34,881 bases of DNA from Candidatus Heimdallarchaeota archaeon. GTDB taxonomy: Archaea; Asgardarchaeota; Heimdallarchaeia; Heimdallarchaeales; JAJRWK01. The translations under genes and the position numbers were made by a program. The stretch lies in NCBI GenBank assembly GCA_027061945.1, contig JAMOVR010000199.1:1-34881 (forward strand). Direction: 5' to 3'. The notes below the pieces were generated by a model. The model saw only the letters and a program-made list of their open reading frames with translations, made no database searches and was not told where the DNA came from. This document shows positions 9,524 to 31,692 of this stretch, piece by piece; the stretch's first letter is position 1, and the number at the start of each line of letters is the position of its first letter.

Positions 9524-9760
9524 ATAAAACACCGTCTTACTAAAAATCTAAAATAATTCTCCCCTCCCCTTTTTTATGAAATATGAAACAAACCCTAAAA
9601 ACAAAAAATAAAACATTAAAACTGTAAAACGCTATATTTCAAGATATATTTTTATGAACAAACAAATAAAACAAAAGCAATCATTATAAGCACACCATAA
9701 ATACATAACAATAGAGTTAAATTATAACGTTAAGTTAAACAAATTGATTGGTGTAGCTTC

Positions 9761-10072
9761 ATGGTACAAAGAGCAAGGATCAGACTATTAGGAACAGACC
9801 CAAAAGTCCTAAATCAAGTATGTGACGAACTCAAAAAAATATCTGAAAGAACCGGCGTAAGAATGAAAGGACCTATTCCGCTCCCAACAAAAAAAGTCAT
9901 TATTCCCGTAAGAAAAAGTCCTTGCGGAAATGGTACAAATACGTGGGATCATTGGGAGCTAAGAATCCATAAAAGAGTTATTGACATGGATGCTGAAGAA
10001 AAAGCGATGAGATTACTAATGAGAGTAAGTGTTCCAGAAGACATAAGAATTGAGGTCGAACTTCTATCTTAA
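9761..10072 (+). CDS. rpsJ: 30S ribosomal protein S10 (uS10)
   Basis: [53 protein letters not shown], typical archaeal uS10. Confidence 0.96.
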
Positions 10073-10145
10073 ACAATTAACCTTTTAACACAAATTTTAT
10101 AGCATTTATCATTATCATGATTTTATTCTTCAGTATAAATTTAAC

Positions 10146-10312
10146 TTTCTCTGCGGTAAATCCCCTTCCGAAAGGGAGGGAATGAAATCCGAAAACATCA
10201 TATGTTTTTTTGTATATGTTTTTCTTGCAGGGCTGGGACGGCCCGTAGCGCCTGTGGAGAGAGTCTCCTCTGTGAAGCAGGAAGCCCCTCGCAAAAGCAA
10301 GGGGTAGTTCAC
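10146..10312 (+). mobile_element. Element A: IS200/IS605-type miniature remnant (left-end hairpin + TnpB C-terminal scrap + right-end hairpin)
   Basis: Preceded by TTTAAC (10140-10145); GCGGTAAATCCCCTTCCGAAAGGGAGGGAATGAAAT; TnpB-like G.GRPVAPVERV; right-end hairpin CCCCTCGC-AAAA-GCAAGGGG (10285-10304) then TAGTTCAC. Confidence 0.75.
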
Positions 10313-10364
10313 AAAACAAAAATAAGTAAAAAATAAAAAGAGCACCTATGGTTTCTATTTAGTA

Positions 10365-11360
10365 ATGAAAGAAGTCAAAATTATAGTCCCCAAAAAACAC
10401 GAAGATGTCTTACTGGATCTCGTAGAGAAAACCGGTCTAAAAGGACAAAAGTTTGATACGGAAGATGACTTAATGTACCTTTTTTTCATTGATACGGAAT
10501 ATATTAGTTCACTGGTTAATGAAGCGAAAAAACGGGGAATTGGCTCTGCTTTTGGAACAATAGTTATTTCTGAAGTGATAATGGTAGGAGAAGAACAATA
10601 TCCTGAACCAAAGTTAATACCTAGAAGGGGAGTAAACGTAGAAGAACTTATTAGCTCCCTAAAACCCACAGCTACCGTATCAGTCACATACATATTATTA
10701 ACAACAATTGCAGCCGTCTTGGCGGCACTAGGCCTATTTTACGACAGTGTAGTTACAATTATCGCCTCCATGATAGTTGCACCACTAATGGGCCCTATCG
10801 CCCTAACGGCAGTTGGTCTAATATATCCTGAAGGAAAAATTCTCAAACAAGGAATAATTGCAGAAATAATTGGCTTAATACTGTCTATACTAATCGGTAT
10901 TATAACCGGTTTTATACTGCCAAAAGCAGAACCAAGCAGAGAAATGCTAATAAGAGCAGTCCTCTCCCCAGACGTTTTCTGGTTCGCAGTGTTTAGTGGG
11001 GCCGCTGCAGGAGTCATTATTTCTAAAGGAATGGATCTCTCAATCGTAGGGGTCGCTATTGCCGCCTCCTTAGCCCCGCCCGCAGTAAATACCGGGCTCC
11101 TAATCGCACAAGGATATCCCATGTTAGCATTAAACGCTTCAATAATTGTACTCCTAAACGTTTTAGCAATAGACTTTTCCTGCAGTCTAATGTTCCACTT
11201 CTACGGCATCACTGAAACAGCAGGAGTATCAGAACGACAAACCAAGAAAAGCAAAAAATTAAACGCCCTAGTAATTATGGTAGTAGGCGGACTAATAGTT
11301 GTAATTGGAGTCTTTATCTTATTAAGAGGCCATGTCATAGAAGCGTTATTTAATTCTTAA
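10365..11360 (+). CDS. TIGR00341/DUF389-family membrane protein
   Basis: N-terminal ACT/ferredoxin-like segment, then multi-TM region with IIASMIVAPLMGPI and AASLAPPAVNTGLL. Confidence 0.88.
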   Translation: MKEVKIIVPKKHEDVLLDLVEKTGLKGQKFDTEDDLMYLFFIDTEYISSLVNEAKKRGIGSAFGTIVISEVIMVGEEQYPEPKLIPRRGVNVEELISSLKPTATVSVTYILLTTIAAVLAALGLFYDSVVTIIASMIVAPLMGPIALTAVGLIYPEGKILKQGIIAEIIGLILSILIGIITGFILPKAEPSREMLIRAVLSPDVFWFAVFSGAAAGVIISKGMDLSIVGVAIAASLAPPAVNTGLLIAQGYPMLALNASIIVLLNVLAIDFSCSLMFHFYGITETAGVSERQTKKSKKLNALVIMVVGGLIVVIGVFILLRGHVIEALFNS

Positions 11361-11369
11361 CTAGTATTA

Positions 11370-11669
11370 GTGAACTACCCCTTGCTTTGGCAAGGAGTTT
11401 CCTGCTTCATCAAGAAGACTTTCCCCAAGACTACTTCCTTTATTTATTGTAAGAAATGGTTCGGAGTATTTCTTTAGAATTCTCTCCGCAGTCGCTACGG
11501 TGAGTTCCGCCCCGGTCTTGATTTTGAGATGTTTAGAAAAGCGTTGTAGTCCCTGTATGCTTCCCACCCGCAAGCAAAAAACACAAACAAATACTCTGTC
11601 GCTTAGTTTTAGCTCGGTAATAGTTTTTTCGCACACGGCACACTTCTTGCTAGTGTAATGGGGGGAGAC
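11370..11669 (-). pseudogene. Element B: TnpB (IS200/IS605 OrfB) 3' fragment with zinc ribbon, frameshifted before the RuvC-III motif, plus right-end hairpin
   Basis: Minus strand reads VSPHYTSKKCAVCEKTITELKLSDRVFVCVFCLRVG (CxxC..CxxC ribbon); an alternate frame gives RDYNAFLNI (RuvC-III RDxNAxxN); C-terminus ..SLLDEAGNSLPKQGVVH and right-end hairpin. Confidence 0.85.
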
Positions 11670-11794: not shown

Positions 11795-13348
11795 ATGGTT
11801 GAAATAATCAAAGACCTAATTGAAAATAACTACAAAGGATGCACGGTTCGTGATATCTTAACAGATGAAAAAGTAAGAAAAAGAATTATTGAAGACAAAG
11901 GTGTCCGAGGAAACGACCGAGCCAAAGAGTTAGTGATGGATAAACTTGCTGTTGGAGGAAAAGTTCTGTTAACAGGCCCTACAGGTGAAGCTAAAACATT
12001 ATTCGCAAGATTGGTTTTAGATTACATTGTCTCAGAAGTCAATAATAGAAAATATCACATCAAAGGATGTCCCTTCTTGGAAGATGCTTACTATATTATC
12101 GAGGTCATCAATAATTTTGATAAAAACCCCTTTGCCAGCGTATCTGTGCTTCAGTCATTATGCCCTTATTGTAGGCACACTGTAGAAGAAGTTATTAAAG
12201 AAGGCACGAAATTGGACGTAAAACTTGATAATCTCGATCAAGTCATTAAAATCGGTAAAGAACTACCCAAGCTATTAGAAAAAATACCCGTAGAAAAAAC
12301 CATTGTCAGGAGAGCACAGATAGATCCAAGGACAGATCCTGAAAGCCTTTACATGCTTATTGCAGGAGTTGAGAACTTGGAAGTATTGTTAGGTGGCGAG
12401 ACCAAAGAAACTTTCAATCCCGCCGCTCACAAAGTCGGAGTTCTTTCTCAAGGGTTTTTGGTAGTAAACGAGATCCAAAGGCTACCGCTGTCCTTATTAG
12501 AATCATTAATGGGCTTCTTGGAAGACCCACAAGGGATCAAGTATAATCTTTTAGGTCAGACAATTTACGTAGATGGTGCAATTATCTTCACTTCAAACGC
12601 TCCCCTCACAGTGTTTGGAGAAGAGTCCCAACCAATTATAAACCGTGTTCCTGAAGTGTTATGGCCCGCTCGTTCTGTCGAGGAAAGAAAGAAAATCGTG
12701 GCCGATATGTTCAGAGACCACTTAGTCGTTTTAAGACACCACGTTCCACCTAATCCTTCTATAATTAGACTATTCGAATTATCTGGTGAGGGTTACAAAG
12801 ACTTTGTGTCAAGACTTGCTGTAGAATTTATCGCCCATGTCGCCAGCGAATCTATCCCTTCAGGTCTCCAATCCGATAAAATCACCAAACTAGAAAGCAG
12901 AAAAGCTAGGAACGAATTCTACGCCGCCCTAGAAGAAATCCACAACCCACAAAAATCCCCCCACATAGACCTAAGAACCCTCAATAACGCCATAGGTGAA
13001 ATGGTAATTAGGACAGAGACAGAGATCGAAGGAATGAAGGTAATCACTTTAGAACATGTCAGAAAAACCCTTGAAAACTATGATATCGATCCCAGATACG
13101 TAAATGAAGCGCTCCAAGCAATTAAAATGAGTATTAGATCACACATCAGAGAAGGAAAGCTAAGTATTAGTGTAGAAGACGTAACAGAAGACTTAGACCG
13201 CTTGACAAGTCTTACTCCTGAACAACTAGACGAGATAATTATTTCTTATGAAAAAATCGAAACAGATGACGAAAACATCAAGAAAAAACTATTAGAAATT
13301 CTACGCCCAAGTTATGAACAGCTATTATCACTAGAATTTATGAAATAA
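11795..13348 (+). CDS. MoxR-type AAA+ ATPase with Cys-containing insertion
   Basis: Walker A GPTGEAKT (11975-11998), Walker-B position FLVVNEIQRLP (12461-12472), sensor FTSNAP, HIKGCPF ... SLCPYCRHT insertion between Walker A and B. ORF track starts at TTG 11786; ATG 11795 likely. Confidence 0.88.
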   Translation: MVEIIKDLIENNYKGCTVRDILTDEKVRKRIIEDKGVRGNDRAKELVMDKLAVGGKVLLTGPTGEAKTLFARLVLDYIVSEVNNRKYHIKGCPFLEDAYYIIEVINNFDKNPFASVSVLQSLCPYCRHTVEEVIKEGTKLDVKLDNLDQVIKIGKELPKLLEKIPVEKTIVRRAQIDPRTDPESLYMLIAGVENLEVLLGGETKETFNPAAHKVGVLSQGFLVVNEIQRLPLSLLESLMGFLEDPQGIKYNLLGQTIYVDGAIIFTSNAPLTVFGEESQPIINRVPEVLWPARSVEERKKIVADMFRDHLVVLRHHVPPNPSIIRLFELSGEGYKDFVSRLAVEFIAHVASESIPSGLQSDKITKLESRKARNEFYAALEEIHNPQKSPHIDLRTLNNAIGEMVIRTETEIEGMKVITLEHVRKTLENYDIDPRYVNEALQAIKMSIRSHIREGKLSISVEDVTEDLDRLTSLTPEQLDEIIISYEKIETDDENIKKKLLEILRPSYEQLLSLEFMK

Positions 13349-13422
13349 TAATTAATCTTAAAACATCTTTAATTAATTACTTTCAAACTCCAAAAACATT
13401 GATTGGATGGAGTGCAATAACA

Positions 13423-14811
13423 ATGCCTCATAGAATAAAAGAAATTACTGAAGGATCAATTCCTGACCCATTATTCACTATTAGTGGAGAAAATCTCGAA
13501 ATAAGTTTCTCAGATGCAGCAAGATTACTTCAAGCTTGGAGAAATCCTATCAAAGCTAGGGGAATACGTGAAGGGATTGTTGTTTCTTTGGTTAACGAGT
13601 CAAAATTGGCCATAGAAGTTATTTCTAATAAGCTAATGTACACTCCTCTTTCTCGGGAAGAAGAAGAACAACTAATAGATGAACTAAAAGTACTTAGATA
13701 CATGATTGCTAGGGCTTTGCCAGAAGCTTTAGAGTTAGTAACACAGGACAAATTAATTACGGAAGAAGATATCCGAAAATTCATTCAACGACATCTCCAA
13801 AGCTTAAAAGAGGAATACGGAGAAATAAAAGGCGCTCGTAAAATATTAAATCGCCTTCAAGAAATAACTGATCTTGAGATCGTAGATAGTTATGGAAACA
13901 AAAGGAGAGTACGAAAAGACGAAGTCATTGAGTTTCTTGGTTCCATTCTTGGTTCATTTTTAGCAAAACAAGCGGCTTTACAACCGTTAACGGGCGTAAC
14001 TGCCAGGCCAATTGGGAAAGTACTTCCCATATACACATACAAAGCAGCGGCGATAACTTCTACTTCAGTACCTCCCAAAAGTATAGATCGTGATGATATA
14101 AGAGTCTTGGATAAAGACCGGATGTCTTTAGTATCTCTAATTGTAGATATGAGCCAGTCGATGAGAAGAGTCGTTTTTGAACAAGGCCTCTCAAGACTGG
14201 ACGGAGCATTACTAACCTCTTTAGGTCTATATTATTTCTTTAATAGGATAAACAGGAAAAAAGGGCGATTAATTAAACCCTTTAAAATGGCTATTGTGCC
14301 AGTCACTAAAACCCCCCACGTAGTTGATGATAACAAAAAACTTGAGGAATTATTATTAAAAGCTAAAGCAGAAGGACGTACACGCTTGGTTCATGCGTTG
14401 ATCGAAGCAATAAATCATGCAAGAAAACAAAAAACAAAAAGTATACAAGCAGAACAACATGTCTCTTTAATTTTTATTACTGATGGCCGGCCAAATGTTC
14501 CCTATCCCGGGCCATTACCTGGTCATCCTAGTGAAGGGTTTAAAGAATATCTCCGAAAAAGAGATATTTCTGAAGACATGAAACAATGTATGCTTCAGTT
14601 AAACCAATTATTTAATTATCTAAAAATGGACAAATCAGTACAATGGTCAATACAATACTTTCTTATCGCTCCACAAGGATCAGAAAAATCTCCGATATAT
14701 AGAGATACTGAACGAATGCTTCGTGGAATAACTCAGCCAATTCTTGTTGACCCTGCAAAATTAGAACATTTAGCATCACAAATAGCGAGGGAGAGCCTTG
14801 CAAACTACTAA
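13423..14811 (+). CDS. von Willebrand factor A (VWA) domain protein, partner of the MoxR ATPase
   Basis: MIDAS VDMSQS (14146-14160), FITDGRPN downstream; immediately follows the MoxR gene. ATG 13423 preferred over TTG 13399. Confidence 0.87.
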   Translation: MPHRIKEITEGSIPDPLFTISGENLEISFSDAARLLQAWRNPIKARGIREGIVVSLVNESKLAIEVISNKLMYTPLSREEEEQLIDELKVLRYMIARALPEALELVTQDKLITEEDIRKFIQRHLQSLKEEYGEIKGARKILNRLQEITDLEIVDSYGNKRRVRKDEVIEFLGSILGSFLAKQAALQPLTGVTARPIGKVLPIYTYKAAAITSTSVPPKSIDRDDIRVLDKDRMSLVSLIVDMSQSMRRVVFEQGLSRLDGALLTSLGLYYFFNRINRKKGRLIKPFKMAIVPVTKTPHVVDDNKKLEELLLKAKAEGRTRLVHALIEAINHARKQKTKSIQAEQHVSLIFITDGRPNVPYPGPLPGHPSEGFKEYLRKRDISEDMKQCMLQLNQLFNYLKMDKSVQWSIQYFLIAPQGSEKSPIYRDTERMLRGITQPILVDPAKLEHLASQIARESLANY

Positions 14812-16333
14812 AAATAAACTGATAGAAACATATCAAAAAGCAAGAGAATTCTTTAAAGAAGAATTCGGAGAAACGCCTGAAGAATATAGGATATTCCTAT
14901 TGGCAGATGAAGACATATACACCGCCATGTCAATGATAAAAAGAACCGCAGCATCTCCCCATGCCATTCCCAGCTCATTATATAGCTACACTGTAAAAGA
15001 AGTAAAACAAAAACATGGTTTGCCAAAAGATGTTGAGCTAGTAGTAAACGGAAGTCCAACTTTAATTTTCATGTCAAAATCTTTTGTTAAAGAACATGAT
15101 GATAACGTCTTATTCTTAAAAATAGTTCATTCTTTGGCACATGCTTTTATTAACGAAAGAACAAAGTCAAGATATCCTTCCCAGAACTCAGAGATATACA
15201 AGTTAGACTATCTACAGAAAGAACTATTTCTTAATAATGTAGTTGCTTTAGTTAAAGAAAGAGATGCAGTTTGGGCATGGCAGTACTTTCAAGACTTCAC
15301 AGCATTACTTAGAATCTTTGCGTTACATAACATGGCCTACTTTTATACACCTCCACCGACAGTAAAGAAAAATTCGGTGTTTTATAATTACCTAATTGAA
15401 GCAGTTAAAATAGCTAAAAAACGAGGTGAAGTAATAAGAAAAATCCCTCTTCATGAGCTTATTGTAGAAGGATTTGCTCATTATATCCATGAAAAAGCTT
15501 TAGAAAAAGTTCCTGTGTCACAACGACAGTCTGTCCTTACCATTCTAAAGGATATACATATGAACCCTATGGGCATCATTGGTTCAGAATTACTAAAAAT
15601 TGCCTCTATAAAAAACGAAACCACAGTTTTAAACTTAGCAAAAAGTTATTATTCTGATTTAGATTTGCTTAATAATTTTGAGCTCAAAGAAATAAAGACT
15701 GAATTAGAGAGAATAAGAGTAAAAACCTCCGAAGAAGGGATACAATACCATAGTGCTCCAGCATCTTATTGGACAGAATTATGGCCATTACATGCTTTAG
15801 AATTCGATAAAGTCGAAAATTATTCTAGACAAATACTTAGATATCAATTCAAAAATTATAATCAATTACTAAATAGAAACCCGATTCTTAGACACCATGG
15901 TTATGTTAAAGTAAAAGACAGAAAAATTCAAATCTTTACAATTAATAACGATGAGGTTGGATTAAACCAGCACCTTATTCTCAGAAACCACTTACTTGAA
16001 AAAAGACAAGACTTTATTACCTCCTTACCTGGCTTACCAGACATAATTGTATTTAAGACCTCAAGCTCAATGAGTATGGCACAATACATAACCGTAGGCT
16101 ATCCCCGTAGGCAACCAAAAACACCATATGATCTTCCAAAAGAAACCAGAGCTGTAATCGTAAGCAAGTCTGTATCATATAAATCTGAATTAGAAGAAAC
16201 TCCTCCAACACTACCAGAAGAAATTGATTATTCTGAACTAAAAGACGTCACACAGCCACAAAGAAACGCAATAAGGTACTTGCTAAGATTCACAATGTCT
16301 GAAATCCCTGAAAGAGAATTTGCCGAGGAATAA
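14798..16333 (+). CDS. uncharacterised 511-aa protein with gluzincin-like H-S-L-A-H and EGFAHY motifs
   Basis: Overlaps the VWA gene by 14 bp. Contains IVHSLAHAFINE and LHELIVEGFAHYIHEKAL; no family recognised. Confidence 0.82.
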   Translation: MQTTKNKLIETYQKAREFFKEEFGETPEEYRIFLLADEDIYTAMSMIKRTAASPHAIPSSLYSYTVKEVKQKHGLPKDVELVVNGSPTLIFMSKSFVKEHDDNVLFLKIVHSLAHAFINERTKSRYPSQNSEIYKLDYLQKELFLNNVVALVKERDAVWAWQYFQDFTALLRIFALHNMAYFYTPPPTVKKNSVFYNYLIEAVKIAKKRGEVIRKIPLHELIVEGFAHYIHEKALEKVPVSQRQSVLTILKDIHMNPMGIIGSELLKIASIKNETTVLNLAKSYYSDLDLLNNFELKEIKTELERIRVKTSEEGIQYHSAPASYWTELWPLHALEFDKVENYSRQILRYQFKNYNQLLNRNPILRHHGYVKVKDRKIQIFTINNDEVGLNQHLILRNHLLEKRQDFITSLPGLPDIIVFKTSSSMSMAQYITVGYPRRQPKTPYDLPKETRAVIVSKSVSYKSELEETPPTLPEEIDYSELKDVTQPQRNAIRYLLRFTMSEIPEREFAEE

Positions 16334-16336
16334 AAA

Positions 16337-17104
16337 ATGACAAGTATAATAACTACCTTTTTTGCAAAAAAAGCTCTAAAGTCCCAAAACCCTCATATCA
16401 AAGCATATAGCATATATTATTTATCACAAACAAAAAATAGTAAAATCGCCTCTAAAGTATTAATCCCACTATTAAGTAATAAAGACTCTTTAGTAAGAAA
16501 CAGTGCTGTTTATGCAGTCAGTCAGATTATAAGAAGACTACATGAAAAAAAAAGACAAGAATTAAAAAAAGTGTTACTTGAAACTTATAGAGAATCTTCA
16601 TTACTTACAAAAATCGGTGTTTTATATTTATTACAGTATTATAACAAAGAGGAAGACGTTAAAAAACTGTTAGAAGATGAACTTAAAGTTGCAGAACATG
16701 ACTTATTATTCTCCATAATACAGGCCCTACCAGTAAGTATCTCAAAAGAAAGCTTAGATGTTCTATTAAAAATATCATCGGAAAATAAAGACCCGTTAAT
16801 TGTATTAGCGGCTTTAGATCATTGGGAGGAAAGTGTCTCTAAGATGGAAAAAGAAGAGAGAATTAACTATTGTACTCCTAGAATTCATACTTTAATTAAA
16901 GTATATGAGCTATGGAATAAAGGAGACGATATCTTATTCGAAGTATTAGATCATGCAGATTCGTCTAAATTACCGGAAGGGAAACTATATCCTGACGTAA
17001 CAATGAGAATACTTCTTGCCTTCTTAGAGAAGTACGAATATTCACCAAATGCTTACAAAAATGTTTATCGTCTAGTAATTCCCGAATATTTCGCTTTAAC
17101 ATAA
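16337..17104 (+). CDS. HEAT-repeat-like helical protein
   Basis: Repeated helical pairs (HIKAYSIYYLSQT..SKIASKVLIPLLSNKDSLVRNSAVYAVSQII); starts 3 nt after the preceding stop. Confidence 0.8.
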   Translation: MTSIITTFFAKKALKSQNPHIKAYSIYYLSQTKNSKIASKVLIPLLSNKDSLVRNSAVYAVSQIIRRLHEKKRQELKKVLLETYRESSLLTKIGVLYLLQYYNKEEDVKKLLEDELKVAEHDLLFSIIQALPVSISKESLDVLLKISSENKDPLIVLAALDHWEESVSKMEKEERINYCTPRIHTLIKVYELWNKGDDILFEVLDHADSSKLPEGKLYPDVTMRILLAFLEKYEYSPNAYKNVYRLVIPEYFALT

Positions 17105-17175
17105 AAGCAAAATAGATAATAAAATATTGAAAAAAACCATACACTGTTATATAATTCTTCTCTACTTTTTTCTTG

Positions 17176-18483
17176 ATGGAAATACCACCTGAATTCGATG
17201 TTTTGGCATTGCCCTTTCAAGGTCATTCAACCACCATAACAAAAATTACGTATGATCATGATGAAGAAGAATTAATAACTGGGGGAATGGATGGGACCAT
17301 AAGAATATGGAATCCCCTAACTAAAAGGCAAAAAATAGTTTTTACAGCCCACCATGACTATATCAGTCAATTAATACTTTTATCCCCTAAAAAACAATTA
17401 ATTAGTTCCTCTTGGGATGGTAAAATAATTTTCTGGGACTTAAAACAAAAAAGAATTGCAAAAATATTCGATAATTCAAAACCCATTTTAGATATGGTTA
17501 TATCTCCCTCTAAACAATTTCTATTAATAAGCTCCGAAGGAAAAAAAACAAAGTTAATTAATACAGAAACAGGGAAGCAAATATCATCCTTAAAAGGCCA
17601 TAAAGATGAAATAAGTGTTTTATCATTTTCACCAGATGGAAAAAGCTTTGTTTCTGGAAGTTGGGATAAAACAGTTAAAATTTGGGATTTAGAAAGCAAA
17701 AGGCCACTTAACACGATTTATTTAGAAAATGAAGTATCTGCTATTTCCTTTCTAGACCCTTTTAAAATAATAATTGGCACTTGGAATGGAAATGTGTTTT
17801 TATATGATTTAGAAATGCAAAACATTACTAAGAAAACTAAATTACATTATAATATTGTAAGCCAGATCCTATTTGACAAAAAAAATAATTATATTTTAAC
17901 AGTTTCTGCTGATAAAACCATCAAAATAGTAGATCCTATTACTTTGGAGGAAAAATACTCTTTAGAGGATCATAAATCAAGAATTTTTTCAATTGCTATA
18001 TCTAAAGACTATATTTTCTCTGCTGGAGCTGATAAAAAAATAGCTATTTGGGATAGGAGAACATTAAAAAAGGCTGATGAAATATTGGGAAGAGACAATA
18101 CTGTATTTCAAGCATTACTTACTCCTACTGCGGAATACGCCCAAGTGTTAGATTCTTCCGGAAATGAAACATTTATAGATCTTAAAACTCTTGAAATTGT
18201 TTCTAAGCCAAACGTACCTTTTTATTCTAAAGAAAAATTAAAGGGAATTATGCCTATAATTATTGGGCATGATGGTGTTAGCGTGAGGTTTAATCTTAAA
18301 AAATTAACGAGTGAACAAGCGAAATTAGCTTTTGTTTCATTAAAAGCAACTATTGCTAAAAAATATTGGGTTCATATAAATGATCATGTATACGCTAATT
18401 TGAGTCAAAACCAAGAGATTAGTGATAATTATTATCAAAAAACAGAGATGTTATTTAAGGCTCTAAAAAAAAGATTTCAATAA
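17176..18483 (+). CDS. WD40 beta-propeller protein (about seven repeats) with C-terminal extension
   Basis: Repeats such as GHSTTITKITYDHDEEELITGGMDGTIRIWNP and GHKDEISVLSFSPDGKSFVSGSWDKTVKIWDL. Confidence 0.93.
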   Translation: MEIPPEFDVLALPFQGHSTTITKITYDHDEEELITGGMDGTIRIWNPLTKRQKIVFTAHHDYISQLILLSPKKQLISSSWDGKIIFWDLKQKRIAKIFDNSKPILDMVISPSKQFLLISSEGKKTKLINTETGKQISSLKGHKDEISVLSFSPDGKSFVSGSWDKTVKIWDLESKRPLNTIYLENEVSAISFLDPFKIIIGTWNGNVFLYDLEMQNITKKTKLHYNIVSQILFDKKNNYILTVSADKTIKIVDPITLEEKYSLEDHKSRIFSIAISKDYIFSAGADKKIAIWDRRTLKKADEILGRDNTVFQALLTPTAEYAQVLDSSGNETFIDLKTLEIVSKPNVPFYSKEKLKGIMPIIIGHDGVSVRFNLKKLTSEQAKLAFVSLKATIAKKYWVHINDHVYANLSQNQEISDNYYQKTEMLFKALKKRFQ

Positions 18484-18519
18484 TCTTTTTTATAACTCAT
18501 AGATTATCTCTTGCTTTTA

Positions 18520-18771
18520 CATAACTCCCATGACTAAAGTCATGGGGTTTAGCGTATATCTGTAGAAACACATGCCACTTCGCGTCTGTACTCGCCATAT
18601 CTTGCCTATAAACTACACGCACCAATCAACTAAACTATATGGCAGTCATCTATTAATTTTTATTATGGGCATCTCACATTAGAAGTTGTAGTCTTTCTGC
18701 CCAATTTCATTGCGTGAGTCTCGTTTTTCATATCCCTACTCATCTCGAGGAAGGGGCTTCCCGCTAATAAA
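18520..18771 (-). mobile_element. Element D: divergent IS200/IS605-type miniature element
   Basis: Minus strand: TTTAAC flank (18772-18777), then TTTATTA-GCGGGAAGCCCCTTCCTCGAGATGAGTAGGGATATGAAA; ends in hairpin CCCATGAC-TTTA-GTCATGGG (18527-18546) and AGTTATG. Confidence 0.65.
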
Positions 18772-18882
18772 GTTAAAATTGGAAGATATTTCTAACATTC
18801 TTTGTTTTACTGACAATTTTGTTATTCAAGTTACAATAATAATATATTCATTTTCTTTCAATTAAAGCTCAAGGCGATTAAC

Positions 18883-19305
18883 ATGTCAGATGAGTATATC
18901 GAAGTAGAAGGCTACTTAGTAAGAAAAGACTGTTTGTATAAAGAAACTCATGAATGGGTTCGCAAGAACGAAGATGGTAACTATATCCTTGGAATCAGTG
19001 ACTATGCAGTAAAAATGCTAAAAGAAATTACTTATGTTGAGTTTCCTGATGTTGGCGAAAAATTCAATGCTGGGGATGCATTTATTGTTGTGGAATCTTT
19101 AAAAGCGAGTGGAGATGTCTATGCTCCATTTGACTTAGAAATTGTTAGTGTAAACGAATCTTTAGAGGACGAGCCTGAAAAAATGAATCAAGACCCCTAT
19201 GGAGAAGGTTACTTAGCTATCGTTAAACCTACTGGTGCTGTTGAGGGTCTTTTGACCCCTGAGGAATATATTGAAAAGCTAAAGGAATATCTCAAAGAAG
19301 AATAA
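18883..19305 (+). CDS. gcvH: glycine cleavage system H protein
   Basis: KETHEWVRKNEDGNYILGISDYAVKML, lipoylation segment VESLKASGDVYAP. Confidence 0.95.
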   Translation: MSDEYIEVEGYLVRKDCLYKETHEWVRKNEDGNYILGISDYAVKMLKEITYVEFPDVGEKFNAGDAFIVVESLKASGDVYAPFDLEIVSVNESLEDEPEKMNQDPYGEGYLAIVKPTGAVEGLLTPEEYIEKLKEYLKEE

Positions 19306-19313
19306 ACGAGGCG

Positions 19314-20690
19314 ATGGCCTTGGAAAAGCCTTATTACTCATTATTAGGGGTTTCCCCCCAAGAAAGAAAAAAAATGTTGGAAGAAATTGGTGTCAGTGAC
19401 GTAATGGAGCTATTTTCAGATATTCCTCCAAAAGTAATTCTTAAGGAATCCCCTACATTACCCTTCGATCCAATGACCGAACTGGAGCTTGTAGAGTTTT
19501 TCAATGAATTAGCCAATAAAAATGTCAATCCAAATGATCTAACCGTGTTCTTAGGAGGAGGAGTTCGTCAAATATACGTTCCTGCACTAATTGATGAGCT
19601 AATTCGCAGAGGGGAGCTGTATACTGCTTACACTGCGTATCAACCAGAAGTATCACAAGGTATTCTTCAACTACTGTTTGAATACCAGTCTTTAGTTGCT
19701 GAACTGACTGGAATGGAAGTAGTTAATGCTTCGATGTACGACTGGAGTACTGCAACTGCTGAAGCCGCACTAACAGCAATAAGAATAACTAAAAAAGATA
19801 CTCTAGTAGTTGCTTCTCCTCTTACAAAAGCAAGAAAAAGTGTCATCCATAATTACTTAGAGCCACAAGGATTCAAAGTAAGAGAAGTGTCATTGGAAGA
19901 AAACTCTCCTCTAGTTGACCTTGAAAAATTAAAAGCGGCAATTGATGACAATACTGCTGCTGTATATTTAGAGATGCCAAATGCAATGGGATACTTAGAT
20001 CCAAGAGCTAAAGAGATCAGTGAATTAGCTCATGATGTAAAAGCAAAATTTATCGTTGGTGTAGATCCCCTTTCTCTAGGACTAGTGGCTCCTCCTGGTG
20101 AATATGGTGCAGATTTAGTAGTAGGTGAAGGTCAGCCATTGGGAAATGCGGTAAACTTTGGAGGACCATTGTTAGGAATTTTTGCTTTTAATTATGATAG
20201 AAAAGAAATTCGTAGGACACCCGGAAGACTAATTGGAATAACTAAACAACTAAAGTCCGGTAAGAAAGGATTTACTATTACTCTCCAAGCAAGAGAACAG
20301 CATATTAAAAGAGCAAAGGCAACTAGCAATATTTGTTCAAATGAAGCATTGTCTGCAGTAATTTCTGCGATTTATCTTTCAGCTCTTGGACCAAGGGGAA
20401 TGGAAGAGTTATCAACAGGATTGCATAAAAGGGCATTGTTCCTAAGAGAAAAATTAGCTGAAACGGGCAAGGTAGAAATAATGTATCCGGAGATCCCATT
20501 CTTTGCAGACTTTGCAGTAAAGTTCCCTGTAGAGAACCATGAAAAGTTCATCTCTACTATGGTCAGTAAAGGATTTGTCCCCGGCGCACCTTGGGACTAT
20601 AACAACGAGCTATACGTACTAGGCGTTTCTGAATTGCATGACAAGCAACACATAGAAGCTTTTGCCAATACCTTAAAGGAGGTATTATAA
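19314..20690 (+). CDS. gcvPA: glycine dehydrogenase (decarboxylating) subunit 1
   Basis: FLGGGVRQIYVPALIDELIRRGELYTAYTAYQPEVSQGILQLLFEYQ. Confidence 0.96.
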   Translation: MALEKPYYSLLGVSPQERKKMLEEIGVSDVMELFSDIPPKVILKESPTLPFDPMTELELVEFFNELANKNVNPNDLTVFLGGGVRQIYVPALIDELIRRGELYTAYTAYQPEVSQGILQLLFEYQSLVAELTGMEVVNASMYDWSTATAEAALTAIRITKKDTLVVASPLTKARKSVIHNYLEPQGFKVREVSLEENSPLVDLEKLKAAIDDNTAAVYLEMPNAMGYLDPRAKEISELAHDVKAKFIVGVDPLSLGLVAPPGEYGADLVVGEGQPLGNAVNFGGPLLGIFAFNYDRKEIRRTPGRLIGITKQLKSGKKGFTITLQAREQHIKRAKATSNICSNEALSAVISAIYLSALGPRGMEELSTGLHKRALFLREKLAETGKVEIMYPEIPFFADFAVKFPVENHEKFISTMVSKGFVPGAPWDYNNELYVLGVSELHDKQHIEAFANTLKEVL

Positions 20691-22213
20691 TGAATGATCC
20701 AGAATACACCCATCAAGCAAGATGGGATGAACCATTAATCACTGAGCTAATAAACACTGGAAAAAGATGTTATATTCCTAAAAGATTCCAATATGATAAA
20801 GACATAGCGATTCCTGATAATCTTCTTAGAAAAACTGAACTCCGCCTCCCAGAAGTTTCAGAATTAGAACTCGTACGGCATGTAGTGAGACTATCGCAAA
20901 TGAATTATGGTGTAGACTTAGGGCCTGTTCCACTCGGTTCGTGTACAATGAAGTATAACCCAAAAGTAAATGAAACTTTAGTCAGATACCCCGAATTTTC
21001 AATGCAACACCCACTACAGCCAGAAGAGACTGTTCAAGGGACATTAAAAGCAATGTATCTCTTAGGTGAAGCATTAAAGTCTCTTACAGGATTTACAGGG
21101 ATTACTCTCCAACCAGCAGCTGGTGCGCATGGAGAATTTACTGGAGTTCTACTTATTCGAGCATATCATATGTTAAACGGAGAAACAAAAAGAGACGAAA
21201 TGCTTATTCCTGACTCTGCTCACGGAACAAACCCTGCATCTTCAGTAATGGCAGGATTCAAAGCAATCGAAATACCTAGTGATGAAAAAGGAAGAATCGA
21301 TTTAGAAGCATTAGAAAGTGCATTGAGCGAAAGAACTGCTGGAATGATGATTACTAATCCTAATACATTGGGTATCTTCGAGAGTAATATCATGGACATA
21401 AACAAAAAGATTCATGATGCTGGAGGCTTAGTATATCTAGATGGCGCAAACTTCAACGGAATAATGGGAGTAGCAAAACCAGCCGATATGGGCTTTGATG
21501 TTATGCATATTAATCTACACAAGACATTCGCAACTCCTCATGGTGGTGGTGGACCTGGCTCAGGAGTAGTTCTTGTGAATGACAAATTAAAGCAATTTCT
21601 CCCTACTCCTATAATCTCATATGACAAAGAAAAAGACAAGTACTACTTTGATTATAACATATCTCATTCTATTGGACATGTGCATGGGTATCATGGTAAT
21701 ATTGCGGTAATCCTAAGAGCCCTCGCTTATATTGCAAGAATGGGTGGAGAAGGCCTTAGAGAGGCATGTCTAACAGCTGTGACCAATGCTAATTATTTAA
21801 TGCATAAAGTAATGCATGAAGATGGTCTTGAGCTACCACAAGATCCGTCCATACCAAGAAAACATGAATTTGTAGTAAGTGCATCTCCATTACTAAGGGA
21901 AACTGGTGTATCCGCGTTAGATATTGCTAAGAGACTACTAGACTACAAATTGCATGCACCCACTATATATTTCCCATTAATTGTTCATGAAGCACTAATG
22001 ATAGAACCTACTGAAACAGAACCTTTATCTATACTCAACGAAATGGCAGATGCTATTAAAAATATACTAAAAGAAGCTAAAGAAAATCCAGAACTACTGC
22101 ATGAAGCACCACATACTGTCGCAGGATATCGACTAGATGAAGCGACTCTAGCTAAACACCCCATCTTATCAGCTAAGATGCTAGAAAAAATAAAACCGCA
22201 ATGGGAGCTCTAA
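20690..22213 (+). CDS. gcvPB: glycine dehydrogenase (decarboxylating) subunit 2
   Basis: PLGSCTMKYNPK, PDSAHGTNPASS, INLHKTFATPHGGGGPGSG (PLP lysine); TAATG overlap with gcvPA stop. Confidence 0.97.
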   Translation: MNDPEYTHQARWDEPLITELINTGKRCYIPKRFQYDKDIAIPDNLLRKTELRLPEVSELELVRHVVRLSQMNYGVDLGPVPLGSCTMKYNPKVNETLVRYPEFSMQHPLQPEETVQGTLKAMYLLGEALKSLTGFTGITLQPAAGAHGEFTGVLLIRAYHMLNGETKRDEMLIPDSAHGTNPASSVMAGFKAIEIPSDEKGRIDLEALESALSERTAGMMITNPNTLGIFESNIMDINKKIHDAGGLVYLDGANFNGIMGVAKPADMGFDVMHINLHKTFATPHGGGGPGSGVVLVNDKLKQFLPTPIISYDKEKDKYYFDYNISHSIGHVHGYHGNIAVILRALAYIARMGGEGLREACLTAVTNANYLMHKVMHEDGLELPQDPSIPRKHEFVVSASPLLRETGVSALDIAKRLLDYKLHAPTIYFPLIVHEALMIEPTETEPLSILNEMADAIKNILKEAKENPELLHEAPHTVAGYRLDEATLAKHPILSAKMLEKIKPQWEL

Positions 22214-25870: not shown

Positions 25871-28477
25871 ATGAACCTCTTTGAGAATATTCAAATGTGT
25901 AAACATCACTGGGTTGGAGGTAAAATTGTCCATTGGTATACCCATCTAGACGAAGAAAACAAAAAATTTGTTATTCCAGGAGCAAAACCACATTTTCCAC
26001 CAGACCATCCCATAGACATAAATCATGTAAAATTAGAATTCCGATTTGATATAGAAAATGAAATTGCCTATGGGCAAACTACGTTATCTTGCCTTACTCG
26101 TCATAAAGAACTTGAAATCTTGAAACTAGATGCTAAAGAAATGACAATAGAAAAAGTACTAGTCGATGGAAAAACAGTTTCTTTCGAGAACACTGGTAGA
26201 TACCTAATAATTGATCTTCCTGAAAAAAAGAAAAAAGGAGATACTTTCGAAGTTTTTATACAGCACTACACTGAACAACCACGCGCAGGAGTATACTTTG
26301 TTAAACCTGATGAAGGAGAGCCAAATAAACCAACACAAGTGTGGACACAAGGACAAGACGAAGATAGTTCATATTACTTTCCTTGTTTAGATCATCCAAG
26401 CTTCAAGCATACCAGTGAAGCAATAATACATGTAAAACCGGAGTGGTTTGCGTTAAGTAATGGAGATTTAGTCTCTTTAGAGAAAAAAGAAGAAGAATGG
26501 ATCTATCACTACAAATTTGATTTTCCCCATAGTACATATCTAATTACGATTGTGGCAGGTAAATTTATAGAAATAAGTGATGAGTGGGATGGAATTAAAA
26601 TATATTACTACGTTCCTCCTGGGAGAGAAAAAGAAGGAATCAATGCTTTTGGAGACACACCAAAAATTATTCAGTTCTTATCAGAATATTTCGGAGTAAA
26701 ATATCCTTATTCTCGATATTCGCAGATTGCAGTTGCAGATTTTATTTTTGGAGGGATGGAAAACACTACTGCAACAACACAAACAGATTTAACATTACAT
26801 GATGATCGTGCTCATATCGATTTTTCAAGTAATCCGTTAGTAGCTCATGAAGCAGTACACCAATGGTTTGGAGACTATGTTACGTGTAAAGACTGGACAC
26901 ATGCATGGTTAAACGAAGGATTCGCGACTTATTTTGAAGCTGTATTCACTGAACATTCACTTGGAAAAGATGAGTTTCGATATGAAATGCTCAGAAATAT
27001 GGAAGACTATTTTAATGAGGATGCTAAAAGATATCGGAGACCAATAGTAACAAATGTTTATAAAGAGCCTATTGATATGTTTGATTCTCACCTATATCCT
27101 GGTGGTGCTTGGAGACTACACATGCTAAGATTCATACTAGGGGAAGATCAATTTCGTGGGATCTTAAAATTTTATCTTGAGAAACATAAAGCTGGATTAG
27201 TTGAGACTTCTGATTTTCAAAGAGCAATTGAGGAAGTCACTGGAAAAAACTTAGATTGGTTTTTTGATGAGTTTATTTATAAACCGGGATATCCTATATT
27301 TAAGATAAACTATTCATGGGATAAACAAAACAAAATAGCTAAGATCTCCGTAAAGCAACAACAAGTAAAAAATGAAAGTAAAAATGATACACCTATATTC
27401 AAAATCCCCGTCACTTTACTATTTACAGATGAAAGAAATAAGAAGACAATTACGCTTGAAATAAAGGAAAAAGAACATGAATTTTATATACCCCTAGAGT
27501 TTACGCCTAAAATGTTCAGGTTTGATCCTGATTTTTGGGTCCTTAAAAAAATAGAATGGGCAGAGAATCCTCCAAAGAACATGTTGGAATATCAGTTAGA
27601 ACATGATGAAGACGTAATTGGGCGTATCGAAGCTGCAAAATTATTAGCAAAAACACCGTCTCCGGATGTAATCCGAAAATTGGGCGAAAGATTACGTAAA
27701 GATCCATTCTGGGGCGTTCAGGCAAGAATTGCCTCAGTACTTGCAAATATAGGAACTAAAGAAGCAAGGAATGAACTGATAAACTCTTTATCTATTGAAC
27801 ACCCTAAAGCAAGGAGGGGTGTTGTAAATGCTCTTGGATCTTTCTTAAGAGACAATATAGTAATGAACTCATTAAGCAGTTTTTTGTCTAATGGGGATGA
27901 AAGCTATTATGTAGAAGCCGAAGCTACTTTAAGTTTAGGAAAAATAAAAATTCCTGAAGCGTTTGATATTATTACAAAACAGTTATCTAAAGATTCTCAT
28001 GTAGAGATTATCCGTAGAATGGCATTAAAAGGTCTAGCTGAGCTTGAGATCGATAGATCCATCGAAGTATTAAAAGAGTGGTCTAAAAAGAATAAACCAA
28101 CACTAATCCGTACTGAAGCAATAACAGCATTAGGAAAATTAGGTAAAAGATATCAAACAGATGAAATATTGGAGTTCCTTGTTCCTATGCTTAAAGAAAG
28201 AAAGTTCAGAGTTAAAATGGCTGTAGTTTCAGCGATTGAGGCGATCGGGTCTCTAAAAGGTGTAAAATATCTTGAAGAAATGGAGGAAAGAGAAGTTGAT
28301 GGTAGAATAAAACGAAGAGCCTATGAGGCCATAAATAAAATACATAAAGAAGCAAAGAAACCCGAAGAAATAGATAAACTAAGAAAAGATCTTGAAGAAA
28401 TGGCAAAGACTACTAAAGAACTTAATGCAAAAGTCAGAAAATTAGAAGCAATTATTGAGAAGAATAAAGAAGAATAA
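25871..28477 (+). CDS. M1-family aminopeptidase with C-terminal HEAT-like repeats and coiled coil
   Basis: GGMEN, HEAVHQWFGDYVTCKDWTHAWLNEGFATYFE (HExxH-18-E), helical repeats after about residue 580. Confidence 0.95.
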   Translation: MNLFENIQMCKHHWVGGKIVHWYTHLDEENKKFVIPGAKPHFPPDHPIDINHVKLEFRFDIENEIAYGQTTLSCLTRHKELEILKLDAKEMTIEKVLVDGKTVSFENTGRYLIIDLPEKKKKGDTFEVFIQHYTEQPRAGVYFVKPDEGEPNKPTQVWTQGQDEDSSYYFPCLDHPSFKHTSEAIIHVKPEWFALSNGDLVSLEKKEEEWIYHYKFDFPHSTYLITIVAGKFIEISDEWDGIKIYYYVPPGREKEGINAFGDTPKIIQFLSEYFGVKYPYSRYSQIAVADFIFGGMENTTATTQTDLTLHDDRAHIDFSSNPLVAHEAVHQWFGDYVTCKDWTHAWLNEGFATYFEAVFTEHSLGKDEFRYEMLRNMEDYFNEDAKRYRRPIVTNVYKEPIDMFDSHLYPGGAWRLHMLRFILGEDQFRGILKFYLEKHKAGLVETSDFQRAIEEVTGKNLDWFFDEFIYKPGYPIFKINYSWDKQNKIAKISVKQQQVKNESKNDTPIFKIPVTLLFTDERNKKTITLEIKEKEHEFYIPLEFTPKMFRFDPDFWVLKKIEWAENPPKNMLEYQLEHDEDVIGRIEAAKLLAKTPSPDVIRKLGERLRKDPFWGVQARIASVLANIGTKEARNELINSLSIEHPKARRGVVNALGSFLRDNIVMNSLSSFLSNGDESYYVEAEATLSLGKIKIPEAFDIITKQLSKDSHVEIIRRMALKGLAELEIDRSIEVLKEWSKKNKPTLIRTEAITALGKLGKRYQTDEILEFLVPMLKERKFRVKMAVVSAIEAIGSLKGVKYLEEMEEREVDGRIKRRAYEAINKIHKEAKKPEEIDKLRKDLEEMAKTTKELNAKVRKLEAIIEKNKEE

Positions 28478-30822: not shown

Positions 30823-31692
30823 GTGAAATGCCAAGCATGTGGCCCCGAAATAGATCATGACATTGTCATACAATGTCCATATTGTAAAGGCTTGTTCTGC
30901 GAAAAGCATATTGAGCCCATGAATCATAATTGCCCTGCATTATATGGAACCATGGGACCAATAATTAATATGGAGAACTTAATCTCTAATTTTACTGGTT
31001 CCCAAGAAAAATTTGTAAGGTCAATTAGTCCTGAGGATGAAAAACAGTATTATGAACAAGTTCTAAAAGAAAGTCCTGGAATAATTACATTAGGTAATGA
31101 ACAGCTTGATTTGTTTGCTGGCACACTACTTATTTTTCTAGCATTAAGTGGAATTACAAATATTTATAAAATGTTTACAGGTGATTTTAATGCTATCTTT
31201 GGCGTTATTATTGATTTTATGATTATTGCTCCTGGTTTTATTTTACATGAACTTTCTCACAAATATATGGCACTCAAAAAGAAGTTTTACGCTAGATATG
31301 TGTTATATGAAAAAGGAATATGGTTAACATTGTTAACTGCTCTGATTGGAATTGGTTTTATCGTTCCTGGTTTTGTTGCAATATTAGGCCGGCCTAATAA
31401 AGAAGAAAATGGTGAAATAAGCATTGTAGGCCCTGCTACAAACATTTTTTTTGCCTTAATTGGCCTCTCCTTAATAGGAATATCTCAAGGAATATTAGGT
31501 ATAACTGGAGGAGTTCTACTTTACATTTTTTATAGAATTGTATTTATCAACGGATTTATTGCTTTGTTTAATTTACTCCCATTTTGGAATTTAGACGGTG
31601 CTAAAGTATTTAAGTGGAATAAAATATATTGGTTTTCTTTAACTCTTATTTCACTATTAATGTTTTTATTTTCAATATTTTACTCGCCATAA
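30823..31692 (+). CDS. AN1-type zinc finger fused to membrane M50/site-2-protease-like domain
   Basis: C-x2-C-x11-C-x2-C-x4-C-x2-H-x5-H-x-C at the N-terminus; HELSHKY and FNLLPFWNLDGAK within a multi-TM region. Confidence 0.85.
   Translation: MKCQACGPEIDHDIVIQCPYCKGLFCEKHIEPMNHNCPALYGTMGPIINMENLISNFTGSQEKFVRSISPEDEKQYYEQVLKESPGIITLGNEQLDLFAGTLLIFLALSGITNIYKMFTGDFNAIFGVIIDFMIIAPGFILHELSHKYMALKKKFYARYVLYEKGIWLTLLTALIGIGFIVPGFVAILGRPNKEENGEISIVGPATNIFFALIGLSLIGISQGILGITGGVLLYIFYRIVFINGFIALFNLLPFWNLDGAKVFKWNKIYWFSLTLISLLMFLFSIFYSP

Follow-up and report, generated by a model that had tools for sequence, protein, structure and literature searches.

A run of genes in a genome assigned to Candidatus Heimdallarchaeota (GCA_027061945.1), beginning with an AAA+ ATPase gene and a VWA-domain gene, raised the question of which molecular system it encodes. 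The stretch analysed, hereinafter referred to as the window, comprised positions 1 to 34,881 of contig JAMOVR010000199.1, and the genome is a fragmented Asgard assembly (2.95 Mb in 377 contigs, 87% complete). An initial annotation had described the run as a five-gene module of MoxR, VWA, degenerate-protease, HEAT and WD40 proteins. All five open reading frames (ORFs) were confirmed where they had been placed, all co-directional on the + strand, and the 14-bp overlap between the VWA gene and the third gene and the gap of exactly 3 nt between the third gene and the HEAT gene were reproduced in the ORF list (Table 1). Our analysis led to a different identity and delimitation: genes 1 to 4 quite likely encode one complex, a divergent form of the PrkA (YeaG)-DUF444 (YeaH)-SpoVR (YcgB) kind joined by a HEAT subunit. 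The homology of the operon to PrkA-DUF444-SpoVR was considered fairly secure.

What is conserved is an operon of four genes, which encode the AAA+ ATPase, the VWA protein, the 511-aa protein and the HEAT protein, and the WD40 gene is an optional genus-level neighbour. Among 38 named Heimdallarchaeia loci, 30 held all four genes and 8 were cut by contig ends; the order AAA-VWA-third-HEAT and its direction were kept in 30/30 of the complete loci. The same four-gene order was found in 20 neighbourhoods fetched independently, wherever the contig was long enough, many of these places being shared with the 38 named loci. In some members of one family the HEAT gene was missed by single-sequence search and was recovered with a family profile. 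In relatives, the third gene usually overlapped the VWA gene by 8-23 nt (mostly 8 bp), and the HEAT gene usually overlapped the third gene by 4 nt. The distance matrices of the four proteins correlated with r of 0.88-0.96, which is the pattern expected of genes inherited together. Given the order in all 30 four-gene loci and the correlated protein distances, the arrangement in the window is not due to chance. The WD40 gene and the downstream gcv genes adjoined the operon only in the genus of the window. Thus, of the multi-part complex proposed initially, the AAA+/VWA pair travelling with the degenerate protease-like and HEAT proteins was retained and the WD40 protein was dropped; among the partners, the WD40 gene varied freely, whereas the third and HEAT genes did not. 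The contigs of the two remaining genomes in the genus break within the VWA gene, and their fragments fitted the order of the window, including the upstream DUF389 gene.

In a scan of the phylum, 34 of the 36 genomes in the order to which the window belongs carried the third gene, as did 6 genomes from one additional family of the class, and the distribution of the ATPase followed that of the third gene. The GTDB scan recovered relatives in Heimdallarchaeia only; the named relatives were Candidatus Heimdallarchaeota, including Heimdallarchaeum endolithica, and one Kariarchaeota metagenome-assembled genome. The module was single-copy and collinear across the clade, and a plasmid search with the ATPase as query gave no match. 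In four further Asgard genomes the third-gene profile matched weakly, within an AAA_5 protein adjoining a VWA protein, so these matches were not taken as relatives. Elsewhere in the phylum (L101 and L108, in G097 and G095), a separate system was seen in which an AAA_5 ATPase gene (7848-9593 in L101) stands beside a VWA gene (9654-11348).

The product of gene 1 contained an intact Walker A motif, GPTGEAKT (aa 61-68), the motifs KGCPFLED (aa 90-97) and LCPYCR (aa 122-127), a Walker B motif VNE (aa 224-226) with Asp replaced by Asn, and the sensor-1 motif FTSNAP (aa 265-270). Comparisons by hhalign with single E. coli proteins were uninformative and family alignments were needed; in profile-profile alignment, PrkA was the nearest family compared (P = 8.6e-8 over 192 columns), followed by MoxR (4.8e-5 over 42 columns, P-loop only), RavA (4.9e-4) and sigma-54 (5.4e-4). 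The score against PrkA was 56.8, compared with a maximum of 28.6 among 60 column-shuffled PrkA profiles. MoxR and sigma-54 profiles scored poorly against PrkA, and the match between gene 1 and PrkA is therefore not generic AAA+ similarity. The best PHROG was phrog_22605 (E = 9.8e-4), which E. coli YeaG matches at 2e-252. The KGCP...LCPxCR signature, which lies between Walker A and Walker B and is degenerate in E. coli YeaG, was found in Thermomicrobium PrkA as KGCPMHEE and LCPWCR with the same 30-residue interval as in gene 1. The usual Walker B Asp was absent in both the gene 1 family and PrkA.

The Pfam scan gave no AAA family above the cut-off for gene 1. Gene 1 was not among the listed matches of the MoxR model PF07726, nor was this model found in Pfam scans of 18 members, although it scored the true MoxRs encoded in these genomes with up to 225 bits. 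With PrkA as the nearest family, this miss ruled out a canonical MoxR identity, and the MoxR label of the initial annotation was abandoned. Matches to the PrkA model in two other genomes (G177 and G178) were assigned to MoxR/Mg-chelatase-like proteins, one of the two having been checked.

The product of gene 3 had no match in the Pfam scan, and no Pfam family convincingly matched any of 29 members. Its AlphaFold model (predicted local distance difference test, pLDDT, 82.9; predicted template modelling score, pTM, 0.84) had one match at E<=0.001 in the viral fold library BFVD, A0A3Q8HYQ4 (E = 1.9e-5). An independent SpoVR model, from a separate phage sequence set, also had A0A3Q8HYQ4 as its sole significant BFVD match (E = 6.7e-10). 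By this shared fold hit, the modelled gene 3 product appears to have the SpoVR fold. In addition, the order and spacing of secondary-structure elements were alike in the two models over the first ~120 residues. The gene 3 model had no significant match in the PDB fold search, and a sequence search for solved structures found none convincingly matching the gene 3 protein or SpoVR. The motifs NGSP (aa 83-86), HSLAH (aa 111-115) and EGFA (aa 224-227) were present in the window; in the window and many relatives, the N..P, AHxxxH and EGxA motifs occurred in the order known from SpoVR, with NSxP, HxxxH and EG-A matching between the two proteins; the motifs were degenerate in one family (L114-L119). 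The profile score between gene 3 and SpoVR was 32.4, against a maximum of 28.4 in 60 shuffles.

PrkA-YeaH-SpoVR is a widespread stress operon of bacteria. The order prkA-DUF444-spoVR was found in Thermomicrobium, Pontibacillus, Novosphingobium, Sphingobium and Comamonas, and in 74/86 phage loci (reference phages and many uncultivated viral contigs, L194-L273). Bacterial, phage and haloarchaeal versions share the AAA-VWA-third order with the operon in the window, and their VWA and third genes likewise overlap or abut. The likeness extends to an ATPase nearest to PrkA that carries KGCP...LCPxCR, to a third protein sharing the fold match of SpoVR, and to the length of that protein (511 aa here, 510 aa for SpoVR in E. 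coli). Whereas the combination had not been recognised initially as a described system, its first three genes match the PrkA-DUF444-SpoVR triad by order and distant homology. Unlike the triad, the Heimdallarchaeia sequences are too divergent for HMMER/Pfam, the AAA protein lacks a detectable PrkA C-terminal domain, a fourth gene encodes a HEAT protein, and some members have degenerate metal-site residues.

Several results weigh against this assignment. In the HMMER/Pfam listing of 18 members at E<=1, PF08298 (PrkA) did not appear, and the confident hhalign similarity between gene 1 and PrkA was confined to the AAA part, the C-terminal ~200 aa having no established match. The C-terminal (kinase-like) domain of PrkA, PF06798, was not among the Pfam matches of the window gene or of the 18 members. 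PF04293 (SpoVR) was matched by HMMER in 0/54 relatives and in none of the 29 members, and the similarity between gene 3 and SpoVR in sequence alone was weak (P about 0.003-0.007). The TM-scores (template modelling scores) of the fold match to A0A3Q8HYQ4 were only 0.34-0.43, and that entry was identified by length only (617 aa, as the annotated SpoVR of Thermus phage phiLo). Gene 2 resembled DUF444 (YeaH/YhbH) in profile comparison (hhalign P = 2.6e-4), but two other VWA sets matched equally or better (9.5e-5 and 1.1e-5), which suggests that the similarity is not specific to DUF444; as judged from these alignments, it would bear little either way on the relation to PrkA. The residues of the metal ion-dependent adhesion site (MIDAS) of gene 2, D250-x-S252-x-S254, T328 and D362 (numbering from TTG 13399), were invariant in the family. 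By strict tests, the operon is neither a MoxR system nor a Pfam-level member of PrkA or SpoVR, but it would work in the manner of the PrkA-DUF444-SpoVR system, to which it is most likely distantly related.

Of the other explanations, the one that fared best is nevertheless improbable: a conventional MoxR-VWA chaperone for metalloenzyme maturation (CoxD-CoxE, NorQ-NorD, CbbQ-CbbO or RavA-ViaA type), unrelated to PrkA and SpoVR, in which the third protein would be lineage-specific with an unrelated fold. An AAA+/VWA pairing is common to the operon and to RavA-ViaA, NorQ-NorD and CoxD-CoxE, the VWA protein is as close to CoxE-like and other VWA families as to DUF444, and HxxxH could bind metal. 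In contrast to those pairs, gene 1 scored lower with RavA, MoxR and also sigma-54 than with PrkA, and SpoVR-like and HEAT subunits are added. The failure of gene 1 to match MoxR in genomes whose true MoxRs were detected, and the sole significant fold match that the third protein shares with SpoVR, argue in the same direction; a search that was not exhaustive showed no enzyme gene recurring beside the operon beyond the genus.

Less probable still is an AAA+ protease system, in which the third protein would be a metalloprotease, active now or in the past, and would resemble SpoVR only in a shared zincin-like core. As in zincin metallopeptidases (HExxH...E), the third protein has an HxxxH helix and a downstream EG-A helix (EGFA in the window) in the zincin helix/strand order, and weak, non-significant zincin and SprT entries appeared in the fold search. 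Unlike zincins, it lacks the catalytic Glu: only HSLAH, HAFAH and degenerate forms of HxxxH were found among all members, and the metal-site His and Glu were lost in the L114-L119 family. Since the catalytic Glu is absent and the motifs are lost in one family, the gene 3 product is probably a scaffold, not a protease. Gene order and the shared fold match also fit SpoVR.

Ternary MoxR-vWA conflict systems with HEAT and propeller modules have been described, including a MoxR-vWA-beta-propeller system in which the propeller is fused C-terminally to the VWA protein (PMC7159879). The locus resembles these in its adjoining AAA+ and VWA genes, its third protein and its repeat-protein partners, a propeller and a HEAT protein being encoded close by. 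A defence system of this type, whose sensor or effector parts would be the third, HEAT and WD40 proteins, is the least likely explanation, and the defence-type complex suggested initially found no backing: the propeller is a separate gene in one genus only, PF07726 was unmatched, bpMoxR (PF20030) had no match in the window genes or the 18 members scanned, PADLOC gave no match or weak generic repeat/AAA ones on the core genes, no variable effector gene was seen in a single-copy, collinear module, and the propeller systems described so far are bacterial.

Beyond the module, canonical SpoVR exceeded the cut-off in 2/228 Asgard genomes, neither with the Heimdallarchaeia module. In a genome from a different family of the window's class (G063), a canonical prkA-yeaH-spoVR operon was observed on a short contig (L105), with further copies on other contigs; it could be real or bacterial contamination. 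Weak matches to the SpoVR model below the cut-off were found in ORFs of ~1,300 aa in G176, G177 and G179 (L278-L280, L282). Our literature search found no paper combining 'Asgard' and 'SpoVR'. In haloarchaea, two PrkAs accompany DUF444 and SpoVR, and a 2011 survey regarded the triad as a signature of this group that other archaea lack (PMC3102087). YcgB, YeaH and YeaG have been reported as a co-conserved triplet (PMC2375023), and yeaG and yeaH have been linked in nitrogen starvation (PMC4664914).

By analogy with E. coli yeaGH, the Heimdallarchaeia operon probably serves protein quality control or adaptation to stress. In a complex of the PrkA-DUF444-SpoVR kind, the PrkA-like AAA+ ring would hydrolyse ATP to remodel a client or partner, and the VWA protein may serve as a MIDAS-dependent adaptor between ATPase and client. 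The SpoVR-like protein, with its zincin-like fold and no catalytic Glu, would be a client-binding or regulatory scaffold, and the HEAT protein a predicted adaptor or connector keeping the complex together. A more far-reaching and tentative proposal is that a SpoVR-like pseudo-protease was turned into an ATPase-driven client-recognition scaffold which, with HEAT, forms a new AAA+/VWA/pseudo-zincin machine that is found in Heimdallarchaeia only and replaces canonical PrkA-SpoVR there.

The features of the locus are listed in Table 1. For gene 1, the start was set at ATG 11795, a TTG 9 nt upstream lengthening the mechanical ORF. The true start of gene 2 is probably ATG 13423 (MPHRI...) rather than TTG 13399, as indicated by family alignment.

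Table 1. Genes and junctions at the locus, with positions in the window.
Feature	Position	Strand	Basis
Gene 1, PrkA-like AAA+ ATPase, 517 aa	11795..13348	+	ORF list, motifs, hhalign
Gene 2, VWA protein	13423..14811 (TTG ORF from 13399)	+	ORF list, weak Pfam VWA_2 (4.3e-4, under cut-off), family alignment
Gene 3, SpoVR-like, degenerate zincin-like protein, 511 aa	14798..16333	+	AlphaFold model, fold match, motifs
Gene 4, HEAT-repeat protein, 255 aa, conserved fourth operon gene	16337..17104	+	Pfam HEAT_2 9.2e-7, synteny
WD40 propeller protein, 436 aa, outside core	17173..18483	+	Pfam WD40 5.2e-43, neighbourhoods
Overlap between the 3' end of gene 2 and the 5' end of gene 3, 14 bp	14798..14811	+	
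DUF389/TIGR00341 gene, upstream neighbour, outside system	10365..11360	+	also upstream in the other two genomes of genus
gcvH-gcvPA-gcvPB, downstream, outside system	18883..22213	+	conserved neighbour within genus only

Between the WD40 gene and gcvH, the non-coding stretch at 18500-18790 contained the palindrome CCCATGACTAAAGTCATGGG, of which partial copies (67-85% identity) occurred at 8 further sites in this genome. The gap between these genes was ~400 bp here and ~150 bp in a sister genome, and the stretch is probably a dispersed repeat or a remnant of an insertion sequence (IS) or miniature inverted-repeat transposable element (MITE). Upstream of gene 1, a short ORF on the - strand (11367-11636) encoded residues recalling the C-terminal zinc ribbon of TnpB, unconfirmed as there was no Pfam match, and a palindrome like an IS200/IS605 end lay near it. 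Further downstream, the + strand encoded an M1 aminopeptidase with HEAT repeats fused at its C terminus (25871-28477) and a 289-aa protein with weak similarity to an AN1 zinc finger and to M50 peptidases (30823-31692).

The divergent Asgard version provides a second, independent sample of PrkA-YeaH-SpoVR. Set against the loss of the metal-site residues, the retention of the ATPase signature, the MIDAS, the SpoVR fold and the gene order leads to the prediction that the SpoVR-like part works as a scaffold. The HEAT subunit is in turn a new candidate partner for complexes of the PrkA-YeaH-SpoVR type.

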